From Planococcus versutus (GTDB lineage: Bacteria > Bacillota > Bacilli > Bacillales_A > Planococcaceae): a stretch of 64,000 nt of DNA. A program made the position numbers and the translations under genes. The DNA lies in contig NZ_CP016541.2 of assembly GCF_001186155.3 (NCBI RefSeq), positions 1 to 64,000 of the forward strand, given 5' to 3'. The notes under the pieces were generated by a model. That model saw only the letters and a list, made by a program, of their open reading frames with translations, was not told the DNA's origin and ran no database searches. Positions 6,474 through 26,247 of this stretch are shown here, piece by piece. Each line of letters starts with the position of its first letter. Position 1 is the first letter of the stretch.

Positions 6474-7091
6474 TTATAATAGATTTGCTGCCTGTTCTTC
6501 GAGTGCTCTTACCAATTTATAAAAACTGGTCTTTTTAACTCCAGCCTGTTGCATGGCTTCCACTGCTGTCAGTTCTTTAGCTTTCCATTTTCTATATACC
6601 TCTTTGAATTCCTCTGAAACATAAACTGCGGGTCTGCCAAACTGAATACCATTTTGCAGTGCCAAATCGATTCCTTCACGCTGCCGTTTCCTGATGCGTT
6701 CCCGTTCTTCTTCTGCCATCCAGGAAAGAATCTGCAACACCAGATCCGCAATGAACGTTCCCATGCTGTCTTTGTATTGGGTCGTATCCAATAACGGCAT
6801 ATCCAACACCACAATATCCGCTTCAATATTTTTCGTGAGGTCATTCCACTCCTGAAGGATCTCTTCTTTGTTTCGGCCAAACCGATCCAGTGAGTGAATA
6901 TATAAAATATCGCCTTTACGGATAATCCGTTTGAGCAACTGATAGTTCGCTCGCTCGAAACTCTTTCCGCTTTGTTTGTCCAAATAAATATCCCGATCAG
7001 TGATGCCCATTTTTTTCATAGCTTCCAACTGACGGCCTTCATTTTGGTCTTTGCTGCTGACGCGTATGTAACCAAATTTGCGATGTTCCAT
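6474..7091 (-). CDS. Serine resolvase/invertase
   Basis: 205 residues. The N-terminal catalytic domain starts MEHRKFGYIRVSSKDQNEGR, with the catalytic Ser in RVS (Ser12). It then has SLDRFGRNKEE with the active-site arginines, the long helix with EEERERIRKRQREGI, and a C-terminal helix-turn-helix (TAVEAMQQAGVKKTSFYKLV). Length and motifs are those of small plasmid and transposon resolvases that break both strands through a 5'-phosphoserine. A three-part res site lies directly upstream (7138-7260). It may act as a plasmid multimer resolution system, and it is the only intact serine recombinase here. The inverted partner res site at 26.8 kb could allow inversion, although resolvases normally act on direct repeats. 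Confidence 0.93.
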   Translation of the reverse strand: MEHRKFGYIRVSSKDQNEGRQLEAMKKMGITDRDIYLDKQSGKSFERANYQLLKRIIRKGDILYIHSLDRFGRNKEEILQEWNDLTKNIEADIVVLDMPLLDTTQYKDSMGTFIADLVLQILSWMAEEERERIRKRQREGIDLALQNGIQFGRPAVYVSEEFKEVYRKWKAKELTAVEAMQQAGVKKTSFYKLVRALEEQAANLL

Positions 7092-7137: not shown

Positions 7138-7260
7138 CGTTCGTAAAAGTGTGTGCAATTTCGTGAACGTTCGTAAAGTCATTTCATACATTTACGAACG
7201 TCATTTTCAGCCGTTTTCAGCCGTTTTCAAAGCGTTCGCAAAAGTGTACTTTTACGAACG
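7138..7260. repeat. res recombination site with three subsites
   Basis: Three inverted repeats with CGTTCGTAAA-type ends lie just upstream of the resolvase. Subsite I is 7233-7260 (28 bp, crossover type, centre TG/TA). Subsite II is 7168-7200 (33 bp). Subsite III is 7138-7169 (32 bp). The order I-II-III-gene and the 28-bp crossover site match Tn3-family res sites. The resolvase promoter must lie within or beside it, so self-repression is likely. Confidence 0.8.
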
Positions 7261-7679: not shown

Positions 7680-7713
7680 CGAATGTAACTTGTGCGCAGT
7701 TAAGTTACATTCA
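7680..7713 (+). repeat. 34-bp lox-like site R1
   Basis: Left arm CGAATGTAACTTG, 8-bp core TGCGCAGT, right arm TAAGTTACATTCA. First of ten related sites with 13-8-13 geometry. Confidence 0.8.
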
Positions 7714-7743
7714 AAAAATTTTTTACTAAAAAAACGAATACAA

Positions 7744-8097
7744 ATGGAGGTGTCTACAATAGCTAATAAAAAACTGACAGAATTCACTTTAAAAGATGTT
7801 ATTGAAAGAAAGATAACTTTTACCGAAACTAATACGATTTACGATAAAAAAGACTTTGAAGATTACAATGCAGGAAATTTGGCAGCCCTTGATGAAATGT
7901 TGGGAGACATAAAAGAATCGAATGAGGAGGAGTTTGTTAAAAAGTATCTCGAAATAATGAAGGTCATATCTAAACAGTTTGAAAAGGAAGAAGTTACTGA
8001 TACTAGAGAAGTAGAAAAATTATCAGGTTATAACAATGCCATTGTAGATATCATGAAGTGTATTAACCCTTATTATGAATATGATGTAGAAGATTAA
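7744..8097 (+). CDS. Hypothetical acidic protein (cassette gene)
   Basis: About 117 residues from the ATG at 7744. A strong GGAGGTG overlaps that ATG and would better serve an ATA codon at 7759, so the start may be a mutated or rare one. The product is highly charged (EESNEEEFVKKYLEIM, KQFEKEEVTDTREVEKL) with no membrane segment, and ends NPYYEYDVED. Unknown family. It is the only gene between sites R1 and R2. Confidence 0.55.
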   Translation: MEVSTIANKKLTEFTLKDVIERKITFTETNTIYDKKDFEDYNAGNLAALDEMLGDIKESNEEEFVKKYLEIMKVISKQFEKEEVTDTREVEKLSGYNNAIVDIMKCINPYYEYDVED

Positions 8098-8166
8098 TTT
8101 CTAAATTTATACAAACGGAAAAATTTTTAAGTTGGCTGACCTCGGGTCCGCTAAAATTTGAATCAC

Positions 8167-8200
8167 TGAATGTAACTTGATGTGAATTAAGTTACATTCA
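8167..8200 (+). repeat. 34-bp lox-like site R2
   Basis: Arms TGAATGTAACTTG and TAAGTTACATTCA, core ATGTGAAT. Confidence 0.8.
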
Positions 8201-8244
8201 AAATAGGAGTTCAAGCAAAGATATTAGAAAAGGAGATATCGATT

Positions 8245-8406
8245 ATGAAGTTGGCATGGGCAATATATTTAGTTGGATTAGTGCTCATAATAATATATTT
8301 CAATACGGGCTCCACGGTAGCTTTTGTAATAGGGTTTGGACTGCAGCTTATAGGGTTTATTATTCAAACGATTAACAAAAAGAAAGCTAATGAAAAATCA
8401 ATATGA
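8245..8406 (+). CDS. 53-residue membrane protein (cassette gene)
   Basis: ATG at 8245 with AAAGGAGATATCG before it. Two hydrophobic helices (AWAIYLVGLVLIIIYF and AFVIGFGLQLIGFII) and a basic tail (INKKKANEKSI). Unknown family. It is the only gene between R2 and R3, and its stop is 30 bp before R3. Confidence 0.7.
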   Translation: MKLAWAIYLVGLVLIIIYFNTGSTVAFVIGFGLQLIGFIIQTINKKKANEKSI

Positions 8407-8435
8407 GTTAATAAATGATTGGCGAGTAGAGGTTT

Positions 8436-8469
8436 TGAATGTAACTTATGTGCAGTTAAGTTACATTCA
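8436..8469 (+). repeat. 34-bp lox-like site R3
   Basis: Perfect 13-bp arms TGAATGTAACTTA and TAAGTTACATTCA, core TGTGCAGT. Confidence 0.85.
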
Positions 8470-8522
8470 AATTGTTGTTTTAAAGGTTTTTTAACTAAAG
8501 TTCAGAAATGGAGGGATAAATA

Positions 8523-8903
8523 GTGAGATTAAGTGGGCAAGGTGTTGAAGAGAAATTAATGGCGACGAACTACATTGATACAGAATTAAAGGAATTATAT
8601 TATGATCACAGCAAGCATTTAGTGACCATAAAATATATGGGCTCAACGGATGATGATGTGGAAGATAGAGAGTATACCGTTCTGTTTAAAGAATGTTTTT
8701 CCGCCACCTTCAATACCTGGTTGGAAGGGGCGGAAGGAGATATCCCACAATCGCCCAATGACGTGGCTTTCTATTTTCATGACATTTCGATTAGAGGAAT
8801 TGTAGTGGAAGGTGTTTCTCTTTATCAAGTTAAAATGGTTATTCCCATGATGGATTGTCAGATTACCTGTAAATCGATTGAGATAGTTAGAAGTGGAATT
8901 TGA
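8523..8903 (+). CDS. Hypothetical protein (cassette gene)
   Basis: 126 residues from a GTG start seven bases after GGAGGG. It alternates strands and acidic turns (DTELKELYYDHSKHLVTIKY, EYTVLFKECFSATFNTW), with no membrane helix. The family is not recognised; the pattern resembles small immunity-type proteins, but that is only an impression. Its TGA stop is the first triplet of site R4, so gene and site are fused as one unit. Confidence 0.6.
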   Translation: MRLSGQGVEEKLMATNYIDTELKELYYDHSKHLVTIKYMGSTDDDVEDREYTVLFKECFSATFNTWLEGAEGDIPQSPNDVAFYFHDISIRGIVVEGVSLYQVKMVIPMMDCQITCKSIEIVRSGI

Positions 8904-8934
8904 ATGTAACTTATTGTGAATTAAGTTACATTCA
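8901..8934 (+). repeat. 34-bp lox-like site R4
   Basis: Perfect 13-bp arms, core TTGTGAAT. The core is identical to that of R8 read on the other strand. Confidence 0.85.
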
Positions 8935-8977
8935 CATCTGCTAATAACCGTAGTTTATGAATTAAGGGAGGTGCGAT

Positions 8978-9325
8978 ATGACGTCTTATTATTATTTGGC
9001 TTCAAACCAAAACATGACAGATGGAACAGGCTCTCTTGAGTTTTTAGAGGTGGATGCAATGAATGTTCCAGGCTTCGATTATCCAATCCAAAGAGAAATT
9101 TTTAATGGTATAGAAAAGGCCTGGCAGCTGAGAGAATTACACCAATATATTTCAAATCACATGGCACGTCATGCAAATTGCGTAATTCAGATAGCCCACT
9201 TACTAAATTCGAATCTGGTCGAGCTTAAAGTGCAGGAAAAAAACCTGTTACTGTTTTCCGAGTTGACGGATCCTAGACAACTTTTGCTAAATGAAAGCCA
9301 ATTATTGACCATCAAAAAAGAATAG
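8978..9325 (+). CDS. Hypothetical protein (cassette gene)
   Basis: 115 residues, ATG after GGGAGGTGCGAT. It reads MTSYYYLASNQNMTDGTGSL near the start and NCVIQIAHLLNSNLVELKVQ later. There is no signal peptide or membrane segment. Not recognised. The stop is 9 bp before R5. Confidence 0.6.
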   Translation: MTSYYYLASNQNMTDGTGSLEFLEVDAMNVPGFDYPIQREIFNGIEKAWQLRELHQYISNHMARHANCVIQIAHLLNSNLVELKVQEKNLLLFSELTDPRQLLLNESQLLTIKKE

Positions 9326-9333
9326 AGAGGTTT

Positions 9334-9367
9334 TGAATGTAACTTATTAGCAATTAAGTTACATTCA
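9334..9367 (+). repeat. 34-bp lox-like site R5
   Basis: Perfect 13-bp arms, core TTAGCAAT. Confidence 0.85.
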
Positions 9368-9369
9368 AA

Positions 9370-9392
9370 AGCCCTCCATCACTGGAGGACTT
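9370..9392 (-). terminator. Short hairpin after the microprotein gene
   Basis: CCTCCA and TGGAGG pair, and AAG/CTT extends the stem. On the minus strand it is followed by four T. Probably a weak terminator. Confidence 0.45.
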
Positions 9393-9399
9393 ACAGTTT

Positions 9400-9501
9400 T
9401 TACATTGCTTTTTTCTTAAATATTTTTCTTAATAAAAAAACTAATCCAATTAAAACGACAATAGTAATAACCATTCCTGGTACGCCAATATTTGTTAACA
9501 T
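9400..9501 (-). CDS. 33-residue TatA-like membrane microprotein (cassette gene)
   Basis: ATG at 9501 after a strong AAAGGAGGGA. It has one hydrophobic helix, MLTNIGVPGMVITIVVLIGL, and a basic end KIFKKKAM. The start resembles the transmembrane part of Bacillus TatA proteins (NIGIPGLILI type), but the amphipathic helix is missing, so a transport role is not claimed. It is the only cassette gene in the left array that points backwards (between R5 and R6). Confidence 0.6.
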   Translation of the reverse strand: MLTNIGVPGMVITIVVLIGLVFLLRKIFKKKAM

Positions 9502-9657
9502 ATAGTCCCTCCTTTTTGTATCTACTATTTTTTATTTCTAGTTAAATTTTAAGGAAACCACTTTATTAAAAATTAATCAGATAACTATACCCGTTTATTT
9601 CTAATAAGGTTTCGTTTTTTTAAAATTAACAAATTTCAAGAGATTTTCTACTGGTTC

Positions 9658-9691
9658 TGAATGTAACTTAAGTCTAATTAAGTTACATTCA
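9658..9691 (+). repeat. 34-bp lox-like site R6
   Basis: Perfect 13-bp arms, core AGTCTAAT. It lies at the outer edge of the long inverted repeat shared with 24985-25243. Confidence 0.85.
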
Positions 9692-9808
9692 CTTCCTTGA
9701 TTCTGCTAGCTTTACGGGAAAATCATTTCGAACTAATTTCACTAGAAAAAATGATACATTCAGAATGCTATTCTATAAGGTTTTAAAACTTGAATCTCAA
9801 AAGATCTA

Positions 9809-9890: not shown

Positions 9891-10115
9891 ATGTATGTGT
9901 ACTTTTACGAATGGTTTTCTAATTTTTGTTCCTACATACTTACTTTTATTGACGGTAAGATTTCCATGCGTGAAAGACTTGGGTTTCAGTCATAAGAATA
10001 AAAAACTGTCTTCAACCGGCATGCATTTGTTTTGGTTTTTAAATAAATGTCATTGCTTTGCAAGAGAGAAAATTCATAAGCGCCTTTCTTGAGTTTTAAT
10101 TTAGAACGATTTCTA

Positions 10116-10948: not shown

Positions 10949-11044
10949 TCTTGCTATTGATATTTTTATATCTACATAGGAAGACTATTTCTGTTGAATC
11001 GTATAACTAAGCCGTTTGGGAGCTTATGTTTGTACGGTTTTTTT
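10946..11044 (+). promoter_or_regulatory. Attenuator: leader hairpin and intrinsic terminator
   Basis: Hairpin 1 (10946-10987) pairs TAGTCTTGCTAT with ATAGGAAGACTA (one mismatch) and has an inner GATAT/ATATC stem. The terminator (11009-11044) pairs AAGCCGT with ACGGTTT and runs into seven T. A competing pairing of CGTA and AAGC (11001-11012) with GCTT and TACG (11022-11036) could act as antiterminator. There is no T-box consensus. The folding is judged by eye. Confidence 0.6.
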
Positions 11045-11077
11045 ATTTGTCTAAAAAAAGAAAAGAGGGAAAAACTG

Positions 11078-12373
11078 ATGAGGAAAATGGATTACCAAAA
11101 TGTAAAAGGGACACAAGATTATTTGCCTAATCAAGAAATGATCAAAAGAAACATTCGTAGAACCTTAGAAGATACATTTATCGCTTACGGGTGCAATCCT
11201 TTAGAAACGCCTATCCTAAACTACACAGACTTAATGGCTTCTAAGTATGCAGGGGGGGCAGAGATTTTACAGGAGATGTATCGATTAACTGATCGGGGTG
11301 AACGTGATTTAGCGTTACGTTATGATTTGACGATTCCTTTCGCAAAAGTTGTAGCAATGAACCCGACGATTCCGATGCCGTTTAAACGTTATGAGATTGG
11401 TAAAGTATTTCGGGATGGCCCCGTCAAAGCCGGACGTTATCGTGAATTCACGCAATGTGATGTGGATATTGTTGGGGTGGAATCACAGGCTGCAGAAGCA
11501 GAATTAATGATGATGGCATTAGATGCTTTTAAGAATCTGGACGTAAAGGTAGAGATTCAATTTAATAACCGGAAACTTTTATACGGGGTATTGCAACAAT
11601 TTCAAGTCCCTGAAGATGTAATGAATCGCGTTATTTTGGTTCTAGACAAGGTAGAAAAAGTCTCGGTGGAGTCAATGATGAATGAATTATCTCAGCTCGA
11701 GCTGACGCCATCTAGTTTGGCCCAAATCAAAGCTTTTATTGAATCCAAAGGACAAATGACAATAGATAACTTCAAACGTTGGGATGAGGAAAATATTTTT
11801 TTACAAGAAGGATTAAAGGAGTTAGAGGAACTTACCTCTTACTTAGAGGGATTGGGAATTCAAGAAATGTGTATTTTCAATCCGTTTTTGGCGAGAGGAT
11901 TGGAGATTTACACGGGAACCATTTATGAAATCTTTTTAGCAGATGGAACAATCCGATCGAGCATCGGAAGTGGTGGCCGGTATGACAATGCGATTGGCGG
12001 ACTTTTAAATTCTGAAAAAACGTTTTCAACAGTAGGTATTTCATTCGGATTAGATGTTATTTTTTACGCATATGAACTGTCGGGCCGTGTAAATAAAGGT
12101 TCGGCAATCGACATCTATATCATTCCAATCGGAACAATTAAGGAAGCACTCAAGCTAGCATCAGACTTACGATCTCAGGGCAGCCGAGTAGAAGTGGAAT
12201 TATCAAACAAAAAGGTAAATAAAGCGATGGATCGAGCAAATCGTGAAGGGATTGCCAATGTCATTGTATTAGGAGAAGATGAAATCAACAGCGGTTTCTA
12301 TCAAATGAAAAACATGTACACAGGTGTAATTCAAAAAAACCTTTTATCAGTTATGGACAGCCAAGTAAAATAG
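11078..12373 (+). CDS. hisS: Histidine-tRNA ligase, plasmid paralogue
   Basis: 431 residues from the ATG at 11078 (GAGGGA seven bases upstream); a longer TTG start at 10994 would read through the terminator and is unlikely. Class II motif 2 is FKRYEIGKVFRDGPVKAGRY. The histidine-specific loop is RGLEIYTGTIYEIF, motif 3 is SSIGSGGRYDNAIGG, and a C-terminal anticodon domain follows (IDIYIIPIGTIKEAL onward). All key elements are present, so it should charge tRNA-His. Bacterial housekeeping HisRS usually reads RGLDYYTG at the histidine loop; RGLEIYTG points to a divergent second type. It is alone in the module between Xer sites B and C, behind its own attenuator. Such extra synthetases often protect against an inhibitor of the host enzyme; that role is inference. 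Confidence 0.93.
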   Translation: MRKMDYQNVKGTQDYLPNQEMIKRNIRRTLEDTFIAYGCNPLETPILNYTDLMASKYAGGAEILQEMYRLTDRGERDLALRYDLTIPFAKVVAMNPTIPMPFKRYEIGKVFRDGPVKAGRYREFTQCDVDIVGVESQAAEAELMMMALDAFKNLDVKVEIQFNNRKLLYGVLQQFQVPEDVMNRVILVLDKVEKVSVESMMNELSQLELTPSSLAQIKAFIESKGQMTIDNFKRWDEENIFLQEGLKELEELTSYLEGLGIQEMCIFNPFLARGLEIYTGTIYEIFLADGTIRSSIGSGGRYDNAIGGLLNSEKTFSTVGISFGLDVIFYAYELSGRVNKGSAIDIYIIPIGTIKEALKLASDLRSQGSRVEVELSNKKVNKAMDRANREGIANVIVLGEDEINSGFYQMKNMYTGVIQKNLLSVMDSQVK

Positions 12374-14668: not shown

Positions 14669-15793
14669 TTATTGAAAACCTGTTTGCTTTACTCGATTTT
14701 CTTCCATGCGTTCTAACACCTGCTCATTATCCTTATTGGATAGGTTGGTATAAAGCGAAGTCGTTTCGATATTGCTATGACCTAATTGATCACGCAAAAG
14801 GACGATATTGCCGCCATTTCGAATAAAATCTGCTGCAAAACTATGTCGCAGTTTATGTGGGCTCATGCCTTCTCCTTGAGCGAATGCAGCAGTATACTTG
14901 GTCACCAGATTCTCAATCGCACGCCGTGAAAGAGGTCGGGCAACGCCTCCATATAGCGTCACTAATAGGAAAGGGACTTCTTTAGATCCGATATACCGGC
15001 CTTCCCGGATATCTAGATAGTCCCTTAGGTGTTGGATCGCTTGATCCATGACCCTAACGGTGTCCTCTTTAGCACCTTTTCGTTTGACGTCGATCAATTG
15101 CTTCTTAAGGTTAATTTTCTTGATGAGAATGCGTGCCATTTCACCCAGTCGGATACCGCTGCCAAGGAAAAGAGAGAGGATGGCCAGATCCCGTTCCTTG
15201 TCCCGGTTGAACCGTTGTCGGGCAAGTCCACTTACCAACGTAGCTTCATATGCATGTTCGACAAACTGCAGGAAGTCGTTGATTTCATGTTCATTTAGGA
15301 TGACAGAACTGATTTTCTGCGCCCGTCGGTTAGCTGTCTCTTTTTTGGTATGAAGCACAATTTTGCTCATGACGTTTCGGTAGAAGTAGGATTCTCCGTC
15401 TTCAGTCTCGGTTTCTTTCGTCAAGTAATTGAAAAGTGATTTTAACGCATTAACTGAAAGAGTAACGACTGCAGAACCACGCCTTTTTACGCTGTTGTTC
15501 TCGTGAGTGATTGATTCTTCTTTTAAGAACTCAATGTACAGCTCGATATCCTGTTTCTTCATTTCGGCCAGTACTGAATAGGGAATCGTAGAAATTTCTG
15601 TAGTTTCCGTCAAATTCTCCCGAAGCAGCCACTGAAAAAAGTGCTGATAGCGGTAAAGGTACTGAAGCAAGGTATCAGCTGAAAGGCCAGCACGTTTTTT
15701 GGAGCGAATATATTCAACGACATAGAAGGGCATGCTGTTTAATTGATTTTCAATCCGTTGGAGGACTTGCAATTCTTCAGGTGTCATTGCCAT
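14669..15793 (-). CDS. Tyrosine recombinase, XerS-like
   Basis: 374 residues, with AAAGGAGG ten bases before the ATG. A SAM-like DNA-binding domain (residues 1-150, beginning MAMTPEELQVLQRIENQLN) precedes the catalytic domain. That domain has box I (LFLGSGIRLGEMARI, Arg), the beta-hairpin Lys (VKRKGAKEDTVRV), box II (SPHKLRHSFAADFI) and GHSNIETTSLYTNL with the Tyr. All six catalytic residues appear present. Length and N-terminus fit the streptococcal XerS type, which works alone on difSL, rather than XerC or XerD. A 38-bp palindrome 31 bp upstream (15824-15861) and an inverted copy beyond fic are its best target candidates. It is also a candidate for acting on the 34-bp lox-like sites. Confidence 0.85.
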   Translation of the reverse strand: MAMTPEELQVLQRIENQLNSMPFYVVEYIRSKKRAGLSADTLLQYLYRYQHFFQWLLRENLTETTEISTIPYSVLAEMKKQDIELYIEFLKEESITHENNSVKRRGSAVVTLSVNALKSLFNYLTKETETEDGESYFYRNVMSKIVLHTKKETANRRAQKISSVILNEHEINDFLQFVEHAYEATLVSGLARQRFNRDKERDLAILSLFLGSGIRLGEMARILIKKINLKKQLIDVKRKGAKEDTVRVMDQAIQHLRDYLDIREGRYIGSKEVPFLLVTLYGGVARPLSRRAIENLVTKYTAAFAQGEGMSPHKLRHSFAADFIRNGGNIVLLRDQLGHSNIETTSLYTNLSNKDNEQVLERMEENRVKQTGFQ

Positions 15794-25092: not shown

Positions 25093-25209
25093 TAGATCTT
25101 TTAAGATTCAAGTTTTAAAACCTTACAGAACAGTATTCTGAATGTATCATTTTTTCTAATAAAATTAGTTCGGAATGATTTTCTGGTGAAGCCAGTAGAA
25201 TCAAGTTTT

Positions 25210-25243
25210 TGAATGTAATTTAATTAGCATTATGTTACATTCA
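25210..25243 (-). repeat. 34-bp lox-like site R7
   Basis: Arms TGAATGTAATTTA and TATGTTACATTCA (one change each), core ATTAGCAT. Confidence 0.75.
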
Positions 25244-25285
25244 CTTAGAAGAAAAAATTGATTAATTTCGCTCGTTTGCACTCTC

Positions 25286-25783
25286 TTATTTCGAGGGAAA
25301 CACTCTCTTTCTCCGTTCCCTGTAAATACTCCATACAGCCCCTATGATATAGCAAATTAATAAGACCAAAATAAAAGTTAAGGCATTGAAAAAAATAGCA
25401 TTAGAAAAGGTACTCCATAATGGAACTTGAGAAACGGTTTCAAAGTTAACCTGTTTCTGTACAATGGTTTTTCGTAGATCCTGTGCTTTGTTTTCCGTAT
25501 AAATAATTATAATTGCTGCTGCTATTACGCTGAATATCAAGCTAGTAACTAGAGTTTTGTTTGTCTTAATTTTTTCTGCGAGTCGCATAGAGAGTTCTGT
25601 CGTACCGTATAAAAAATAAAAGAAAAATGGCATGAGAAAAACCGGAATAAACAGGGCTGGATTACCATTTCCACCCCCCGTACCGTCTTCTACAACAGTT
25701 TCTGTGAAAAAGTTCATTCCATAAAATCCTATTAATACAACTACCAAAGAAATAACGTACAAAAAAAGCAGCAATTTTCTCAT
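25286..25783 (-). CDS. Membrane protein (right-array cassette gene)
   Basis: 165 residues after AAAAAGGAGG. Four hydrophobic segments: LLLFLYVISLVVVLIGFYG, FIPVFLMPFFFYFLYG, LIFSVIAAAIIIIY and ALTFILVLLICYIIGAVW. Basic end YRERRKRVFPSK. Unknown family. It is the only gene between R7 and R8. Confidence 0.65.
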   Translation of the reverse strand: MRKLLLFLYVISLVVVLIGFYGMNFFTETVVEDGTGGGNGNPALFIPVFLMPFFFYFLYGTTELSMRLAEKIKTNKTLVTSLIFSVIAAAIIIIYTENKAQDLRKTIVQKQVNFETVSQVPLWSTFSNAIFFNALTFILVLLICYIIGAVWSIYRERRKRVFPSK

Positions 25784-25847
25784 AAATATTCCTCCTTTTT
25801 TGAATGTTTCTCAAATTGTTTTTGCCATTTGCTTAATTACTTGGTTT

Positions 25848-25881
25848 TGAATGTAACTTAATTCACAATAAGTTACATTCA
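25848..25881 (-). repeat. 34-bp lox-like site R8
   Basis: Perfect 13-bp arms, core ATTCACAA; on the minus strand this is TTGTGAAT, the core of R4. Confidence 0.85.
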
Positions 25882-25914
25882 AATTGTATTTGCTGATCTT
25901 ATTATCATTAGTTA

Positions 25915-26184
25915 CTACTCATTATTTTTTATTGGAGAATCTCCTTTTTCCCAAGTTGTTGGTCCTTCATCAACTGATATGAATTTATTCCAATACTGAC
26001 CTGATTCTTTATCAAAAATGATGAGATTATTTTCATTCGCAGGAATTAATTCATATCTATGTTCAGCATTAGTGTTAATTGCTTCGGACTCTTTTTCTCC
26101 TAATGCCGTTACTAAAGAAAACCCTAAAATTGCAAATCCTATTATAATTGCAAGACCAATAATTAATGATGAACTGTTTTTCAT
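25915..26184 (-). CDS. Small membrane-anchored protein (right-array cassette gene)
   Basis: 89 residues after AAGGAGGAAGAAA. One N-terminal hydrophobic helix (LIIGLAIIIGFAILGFSLV), then a hydrophilic outside domain with YELIPANENNLIIFDKESGQ. Unknown family. It is the only gene between R8 and R9. Confidence 0.65.
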   Translation of the reverse strand: MKNSSSLIIGLAIIIGFAILGFSLVTALGEKESEAINTNAEHRYELIPANENNLIIFDKESGQYWNKFISVDEGPTTWEKGDSPIKNNE

Positions 26185-26213
26185 TTTCTTCCTCCTTATT
26201 TTTTATAGCAATT

Positions 26214-26247
26214 TGAATGTAACTTAACTGCACTTAAGTTACATTCA
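26214..26247 (-). repeat. 34-bp lox-like site R9
   Basis: Perfect 13-bp arms, core ACTGCACT (AGTGCAGT on the minus strand, close to R1 and R3). Confidence 0.85.

Follow-up and report, generated by a model that had tools for sequence, protein, structure and literature searches.

Gene-cassette capture has been described chiefly in integrons. Cre/loxP and FRT are familiar sites in which palindromic arms flank an asymmetric core whose identity sets the choice of partner, and in engineered sets of heterospecific lox sites unlike cores permit cassette exchange. According to the available part of the IntegronFinder 2.0 report, complete integrons are nearly absent from Firmicutes, with one complete example in Limnochorda plus a few CALIN (clusters of attC sites without an integrase) (PMC9024848). 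The pdif modules of Acinetobacter plasmids are described, in the accessible portion of their source, as having unlike 11-bp XerC and XerD halves, a 6-bp spacer and inversely oriented sites (PMC7315799). Here we analyse arrays of small genes separated by 34-bp palindromic sites in a 64,000-nucleotide stretch of Planococcus versutus (contig NZ_CP016541.2, positions 1 to 64,000; hereafter the window), which takes up the first 64 kb of a contig of 70,675 bp in a genome of three contigs and 3.33 Mb. The available part of a tyrosine recombinase survey covers integron-like and other small groups and holds no such cassette system (PMC8138268), and none of the open-access papers listed in our searches concerned Planococcus cassettes at these sites or the arm sequence.

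We consider it probable, on the basis of sequence comparison, that these arrays belong to a mobile cassette system of Planococcus with a dedicated recombinase, in which exchange occurs mostly between like cores that act as slot addresses. In the proposed mechanism, small genes would lie between 34-bp palindromic sites with 14-bp arms and a 6-bp core, and a 187-amino acid (aa) tyrosine recombinase, able to act in trans, would exchange DNA within that core. Whole cassettes could thus be gained, lost or swapped between plasmids and the chromosome. Like cores would recombine mostly with each other, yielding ordered and stable arrays whose cores serve as addresses, and less frequent recombination between unlike cores would move a cassette to another slot.

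Sites and core types

The initial annotation, made from the letters of the window, had placed six sites at positions 7680, 8167, 8436, 8901, 9334 and 9658, and all six are present there. Both 13-bp arms are exact in four of them, with one mismatch at 8167 and two at 7680; 100 dinucleotide shuffles gave no match at up to three mismatches over the 26 arm bases. Three sites absent from that annotation, at 25210, 25848 and 26214, form a second array (25210-26247), in which the genes and the core orientation are both on the minus strand.

For the wider comparison, 488 sites were called in 125 contigs (1.33 Mb, duplicates retained) with at most five arm mismatches, and the orientation of each was assigned by best fit to the core types. 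The 13-8-13 division proposed initially for the 34-bp site needs correction: the geometry is 14-6-14, with a core of 6 bp and not 8. Nearly all sites (480 of 488) have A or T at position 14, and 411 have T at position 21. The variable, asymmetric segment by which sites can be typed comprises positions 15-20, and the inverted arms take up 1-13 and 22-34. Three exact cores recur, GTGCAG (type A), TGTGAA (type B) and TAGCAA (type C). Type D is a mixed class that takes in any core ending in TAA with its first triplet free (TCCTAA, TGCTAA, GTCTAA, TGGTAA and others), and 41 sites lie one base away from a type.

Evidence for cassette exchange

Homology between intervals begins and stops at the sites. 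We found 187 full-length homologous pairs of intervals, 113 in the same slot (that is, between the same two core types) and 74 in different slots. Where the members of a pair are at least 90% identical, the neighbouring interval is unrelated (no blastn match at 1e-8) in 36 of 45 cases on the left and in 35 of 44 on the right. For example, a 100% identical A-B cassette is present in two loci (L071 and L017) with unrelated B-D neighbours, and in one contig (L092) a 100% identical B-D cassette stands in two arrays behind unlike A-B cassettes. Alignments across the break points lose identity within the site. Removal of duplicates, namely L169 and the second half of plasmid pPA05-1, leaves 171 of the 187 pairs, 101 of them in the same slot. 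The pPA05-1 record of Planococcus antarcticus (L166, 31 kb) consists of two 15.5-kb halves and is either a stable dimer or an assembly dimer; the halves are 99.6% identical, and no gain or loss of a cassette could be read from their comparison.

The position of the crossover can be narrowed with the closest pairs. Sixteen junctions combine a cassette identity of 97% or higher with an unrelated neighbour, and in these the cassette-side arm shows no mismatches and the neighbour-side arm nine, compared with 0.75-0.82 mismatches per arm in random pairs of like-type sites. The base at the edge of the core behaves likewise at these junctions, with no mismatches on the cassette side and four on the neighbour side. 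The split of arm mismatches therefore places the exchange within the central 6 bp and supports the 14-6-14 geometry. Crossover within the 6-bp core would be the simplest reading, as expected for a tyrosine recombinase, and the intervals between sites behave as mobile cassettes. The initial annotation had read the lox-like sites, which differ from attC, as those of a cassette system, and had named relatives that never exchange at these sites as the finding that would count against it; the relatives do exchange, with breaks that map inside the core.

Core identity and array order

At junctions with an unrelated neighbour, the same 6-bp core is kept at 33 of 39 when the cassette is at least 95% identical, where chance would give 0.14-0.20. 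Counting each cassette family and side once, the core is kept in 15 of 21 cases at 95% and in 9 of 11 at 97%. The 113 of 187 pairs that keep their slot compare with a mean of 31 and a maximum of 57 under permutation, and 28 of 68 families occupy a single slot type (permuted mean 7.5, maximum 17). The pairs are not independent, and these core- and slot-matching figures serve as guides. Exchange between matched cores combined with a slower change of slot would fit both the core counts and the slot counts.

The types also follow a set order. Sites less than 4 kb apart were treated as one array, which merges a few arrays. Among adjacent typed pairs less than 1.5 kb apart, core orientation agrees in 292 of 300, and read in that orientation the cores run A, B, C, D. 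The transitions include A-B 102 times, B-C 56, C-D 51, B-D 32, D-D 23 and D-C 14, and A-A never occurs. Across 117 arrays there are 259 ascending, 31 descending and 25 equal steps, and 10,000 shuffles within arrays gave a mean of 144 ascending steps and a maximum of 168. In a subset of 55 arrays that have no homologous cassette in common, 87 steps ascend, 7 descend and 4 are equal (shuffle maximum 62); the order is thus not merely that of copies of one array. Type A leads 107 of the 122 arrays with at least two sites, and the longest runs contain nine sites. The leader upstream of A belongs to one common family in 27 of the 109 A-led arrays. In several plasmids (L164, L168 and L170), a gene for a MerR-family regulator ends about 20 bp 5' of the A site.

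A candidate recombinase and a conserved tail

The 187-aa protein encoded on small plasmids consists of the catalytic domain only (Pfam PF00589, residues 31-175), and its catalytic residues R47, K71, H135, R138, H161 and Y170 are invariant in 18 relatives. The solved structures that it matches by sequence are two Xer-type enzymes only. Of 43 tblastn matches in the loci, 37 lie behind a site of the same orientation, 19 of these at a distance of 203-207 bp; six of the 37 upstream sites have an untyped core, which makes their orientation less sure. Four of the remaining matches stand at the start or end of a stretch with no site upstream, and two follow a site of opposite orientation. The 43-match loci were chosen because they hold sites and the adjacency is partly selected, and for this reason a protein-first count was also made. 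In 46 genomes of the genus this gave 39 close copies (at least 87% identity, nearly full length; matched to loci by coordinates), with 32 behind a site of the same orientation, five at a contig edge and two with the opposite orientation. Close copies occur in 18 of the 46 genomes, and the window's own genome carries one on contig 3. One further copy (G002, contig 3) is interrupted by an internal stop. This placement makes the 187-aa protein the likely enzyme of the arrays, one that would act in trans.

The site before the recombinase gene is of type B, C or D or untyped. Conserved DNA follows the last site of an array and includes, about 70 bp on, a second sequence resembling a half-site, GATACATTCA. 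A hidden Markov model profile of this tail, built from eight of the tails that it then detects, finds it behind 101 of 481 sites; 93 of the 101 close an array and none is of type A, and both window arrays are included. An exact pattern of site plus tail had no matches in 186 loci. The last site, the tail and the recombinase gene form one conserved unit, which persists at 74% protein identity (L173). Among more distant relatives of the protein, that of Macrococcus (44% identical) has one similar palindrome 97 bp upstream with the D-like core TGGTAA, and that of Salimicrobium (49%) has a weaker palindrome 102 bp upstream; for the Enterococcus, Alkalihalophilus, Bacillus and Halobacillus relatives (L183-L186), no convincing site-like palindrome was found within 900 bp. 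A single-site plasmid resolution system is a likely ancestor. Plasmid pFN9D of Lysinibacillus capsici (L175), which also carries cfr, lsa(B) and repeated units, has the recombinase with one unoccupied site (core TATAAA), and pNM8 of Planococcus citreus (L165) is arranged in the same way.

The two arrays of the window

The features of the first array are as follows (ORF, open reading frame, assigned mechanically):

7680-7713, plus strand: site 1 and array start, A-like core GCGCAG, two arm mismatches
7690-8097, plus strand: ORF of the cassette between sites 1 and 2; listed TTG start inside the site, in-frame ATG at 7744; without a Pfam match; partial relative (70.7% over 338 bp) in the B-C slot of L039
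8167-8200, plus strand: site 2, type B core TGTGAA, one arm mismatch
8245-8406, plus strand: 53-aa ORF of cassette 8201-8435
8436-8469, plus strand: site 3, type A core GTGCAG, exact arms
8523-8903, plus strand: 126-aa ORF of cassette 8470-8900
8901-8934, plus strand: site 4, type B core TGTGAA, exact arms
8978-9325, plus strand: 115-aa ORF of cassette 8935-9333; 88% relative in Gracilibacillus boraciitolerans (L015)
9334-9367, plus strand: site 5, type C core TAGCAA, exact arms
9400-9501, minus strand: 33-aa ORF of cassette 9368-9657; 90% relative in a chromosomal D-D slot
9658-9691, plus strand: site 6, the last, type D core GTCTAA, exact arms
9692-9784, plus strand: conserved tail (profile match E 1.7e-6), holding the second half-site-like GATACATTCA

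The second array reads in the opposite direction:

26214-26247, minus strand: type A site, core GTGCAG in the direction of the genes
25915-26184, minus strand: 89-aa ORF of cassette 25882-26213
25848-25881, minus strand: type B site
25286-25783, minus strand: 165-aa ORF of cassette 25244-25847; no homologous interval among 330
25210-25243, minus strand: type D site, the last, core TGCTAA, two arm mismatches
25115-25209, minus strand: conserved tail (profile match E 2.3e-8)

The order of cores is therefore a-B-A-B-C-D in the first array, where the lower-case letter marks the A-like core, and A-B-D in the second. The expectation of one small gene in every interval was borne out in four of the five (ORFs ending at 8097, 8406, 8903 and 9325), but not in 9368-9657, whose sole ORF is the 33-aa frame on the minus strand; the stop codon of 8523-8903 is, as had been pointed out, the first triplet of site 8901. 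No Pfam match was found for the five ORFs of the first array and no Rfam match in the window. The 187-aa recombinase gene was not found behind the tail at 9692-9784.

All five intervals of the first array have a relative elsewhere, one of them partial only. At 95.3% identity, cassette 8201-8435 recurs in a B-C slot of P. halocryophilus (L073), where the DNA to either side is unrelated, and cassette 8470-8900 has relatives on the chromosome of its own genome in a B-C slot (83%) and an A-B slot (79%). In the second array, cassette 25882-26213 has A-B-slot counterparts that are 96.7% (L097) and 95.8% (L101) identical and whose right neighbours are unrelated; the flanks around the L097 counterpart differ.

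The surroundings of the first array include other genes of note. A serine resolvase gene (6474-7091, PF00239) adjoins the array start, and upstream of it the region 7140-7260 contains repeats of the form GTAAAAGTG/ACTTTTACGAA, perhaps its res site; similar stretches recur near 9900 and 10755. A histidyl-tRNA synthetase-like gene (10994-12373, PF13393, E 1.9e-39) lies just past the array, and a XerS-type tyrosine recombinase gene (NF003462, 395 bits against a cut-off of 267) occupies 14669-15793.

Distribution among genomes and replicons

Fifty-nine sites are present in the whole genome (at most three mismatches over 22 arm bases; none for a reversed control pattern), and they are grouped on the chromosome, in the window and on the 9.8-kb third contig. 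In the genus Planococcus, 45 of 46 genomes have a site at up to two mismatches. A looser pattern, ATGTAAC-N14-GTTACAT without mismatches, was applied to 261 genomes (order-level and family-level selections gave the identical set) and occurs in 44 of the 46 genus genomes and in 12 of 215 outside the genus. The matches of 10 of these 12 were inspected (all except G191 and G201), and similar inner bases are found in G062 alone (three matches). In the genome collection, among the matches listed (118 stretches), all are from Planococcus or Planomicrobium except two, from Gracilibacillus and Exiguobacterium. The search of plasmid collections that had been recommended initially returned sites in 20 Planococcus records and one Lysinibacillus plasmid; a further eight weak records, from Escherichia and Citrobacter, align with 68-74% of the site at E 0.3 and seem to be fortuitous. 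No match to the site or pattern was found among the viral contigs and phages searched. The arrays had been presented as a plasmid feature, and plasmids do carry them, but many are chromosomal and the system is therefore not restricted to plasmids.

Cassette contents

The 330 intervals fall into 159 families, 85 of which are singletons. Median interval length is about 500 bp in the common slots, and 321 of the 330 intervals have an ORF of at least 50 aa. These ORFs run in the direction of the site in 89 of 99 cases in the A-B slot and in 25 of 49 in the C-D slot. A Pfam scan of 145 family representatives with ORFs of at least 60 aa gave 70 families, each in at most three members, including SUKH, DUF1871, GNAT, NUDIX and many DUFs. 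Among 145 cassette ORFs, PADLOC gave hits to 15 families, each in a single member, with no common theme. The pool includes immunity-type families (SUKH, WapI-like and others), a resemblance to polymorphic-toxin immunity loci.

Weighing the explanations

A number of observations weigh against typed exchange by a dedicated recombinase. The proportion of junctions that keep their core falls to 16 of 32 at 90-95% identity, and the counts for 85-90% and 70-85% are 14 of 29 and 26 of 67. Unlike cores are found even among the most recent events: two of the 16 junctions with at least 97% identity have them, as do six of the 39 with at least 95% and 6 of 21 family-sides. In the window's own genome, a 3.2-kb cassette-like stretch, 97.4% alike in its two copies, follows a D core on the chromosome (L124) and an A core on contig 3 (L131). 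An excess of core-shifting slot changes would be expected, because a circular intermediate with one core would move that core to the cassette's other side; such shifts account for 35 of 74 changes against 39% expected, a weak excess that 119 of 5000 permutations reach. The arm split is also weaker across the 39 junctions at 95% or more (14 mismatches against 21, with 6 against 11 at the core-edge base); mapping at 90% or more is ambiguous, and the clean split is confined to the 97% set. Moreover, 27 of the 488 sites fall outside all core types, and 28 of 46 genomes have no close recombinase copy, with sites in 27 of these 28. Plasmids may have been lost from these assemblies, or a different enzyme may act. 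Finally, core matching, which we propose as a cause of ordered arrays, does not by itself account for A preceding B, C and D, and selection against self-deletion accounts for the presence of unlike cores in one array, not for their order.

In one alternative, cassettes would be inserted and excised at any site, as in integrons, with the order of cores reflecting position or history in place of partner choice. This alternative is unlikely, though it deserves serious attention: 74 of the 187 pairs occupy different slots, a few at 95% identity with both cores changed, the largest family spans seven slot types, and unlike cores occur at 6 of the 21 recent family-sides. Against it, 33 of 39 recent junctions keep a core that chance would match in 14-20%, the proportion declines with divergence, 28 of 68 families stay in one slot type where permutation yields 7.5 on average and 17 at most, and untyped insertion would be expected to scramble the order. 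A different enzyme acting on the same cassettes is an improbable alternative, in which host recombination of the XerC/XerD or XerS type, as at pdif, would move the cassettes and the 187-aa protein would just resolve small plasmids. The 6-bp spacer is that of pdif (11-6-11 in the part of PMC7315799 available), many D-site left arms, when inverted, read TTATGTTACATTCA and resemble the XerD half-site that this source gives for pdif (TTATGTTAATT), a XerS-type gene is present in the window, and nearly all the genomes that lack a close recombinase copy have sites. Yet the arms are essentially one 14-mer, whereas the XerC and XerD halves of pdif are unlike, and the unit of last site, tail and recombinase gene is conserved as far as L173, with a similar palindrome preceding even the Macrococcus relative. 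In addition, the single genome of the genus that has no site at up to two mismatches (G025) still encodes two tyrosine recombinases with strong matches, each about 300 aa long and presumably XerC and XerD.

Intergenic inverted repeats can also serve as operators or terminators, and ordinary homologous recombination in repeated sequence could then have shuffled the intervals. We consider this very doubtful, given that the break points share nothing beyond the site, that, at the closest junctions, the core separates the variants found inside the site, that Rfam has no match in the window and that 292 of 300 neighbouring typed sites share their core orientation. A true integron or CALIN would be consistent with single-gene cassettes mostly in one orientation, an open pool (159 families in 330 intervals) and arrays with and without a recombinase gene, but we give this identity almost no credence, and the tests of integrase and attC membership rule it out. 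No protein of five genomes, nor of 14 control genomes, exceeds the cut-off of the integron integrase model TIGR02249, for which the recombinase reaches 29.7 bits where 265 are required. The sites are short palindromes, and judged by length and motif they do not have the paired GTTRRRY/RYYYAAC ends of attC: GTTRRRY occurs on either strand in 114 of 488 sites, and in type A it is GTTAAGT, formed from core and arm. With neither an integrase over the cut-off nor attC sites, the system is therefore integron-like in its working and not an integron.

We thus return to typed cassette exchange by a dedicated recombinase as the probable explanation. Its fuller form, a self-organising positional code in which four classes of 6-bp core in the order A-B-C-D would let genus-wide swaps proceed slot by slot without scrambling, and which would have arisen independently of integrons in Gram-positive bacteria, is a proposal that we favour only slightly over its negation. 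If true, cassette arrays arose more than once, here with a second enzyme, a second site and an apparent address code, and addressing is a feature that integrons lack. The system would help to account for the large pool of small accessory genes in one genus, and it makes testable how arrays escape self-deletion, through unlike cores within one array. It would also offer a natural set of one recombinase and several core classes for ordered DNA assembly.

Comparison with known systems

The likeness to integrons lies in the tandem single-gene cassettes, mostly in one orientation and drawn from an open gene pool, in a tyrosine recombinase encoded next to the array on one side and in recombinase-free chromosomal arrays. 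Unlike integrons, the Planococcus system has a candidate enzyme that consists of a catalytic domain of 187 aa, and palindromic 34-bp sites whose 6-bp cores are typed and ordered; its arrays, with runs of at most nine sites, precede the recombinase gene and share its direction. As far as the cited description of pdif extends, both systems use short sites with a variable 6-bp spacer to bound movable plasmid modules. In contrast to pdif, which uses XerC and XerD, the arms of the Planococcus site are essentially the same 14-mer inverted, the sites are directly repeated, with 292 of 300 neighbouring typed sites co-oriented, and a dedicated recombinase appears to accompany the array. The system is neither an integron nor a set of pdif modules.

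Cre/loxP and FRT share the palindromic arms and asymmetric core, and exchange between like cores would resemble the use of heterospecific lox sites; the Planococcus core differs in being 6 bp long, and the set occurs in nature, where no fewer than four core classes follow a fixed order throughout the genus. The small Gram-positive plasmid recombinases of Macrococcus, Salimicrobium, Enterococcus, Alkalihalophilus and Bacillus (40-49% identical) are of the same protein family and size and probably serve plasmid dimer resolution. The likeness extends to a single comparable palindrome, some 100 bp upstream of the gene in Macrococcus and less clear in Salimicrobium, but among the five compared no array was seen and no more than one site. 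Set beside these systems, the Planococcus arrays look like a second, integron-like means of trade in single genes, here within a Gram-positive genus and with built-in position labels.

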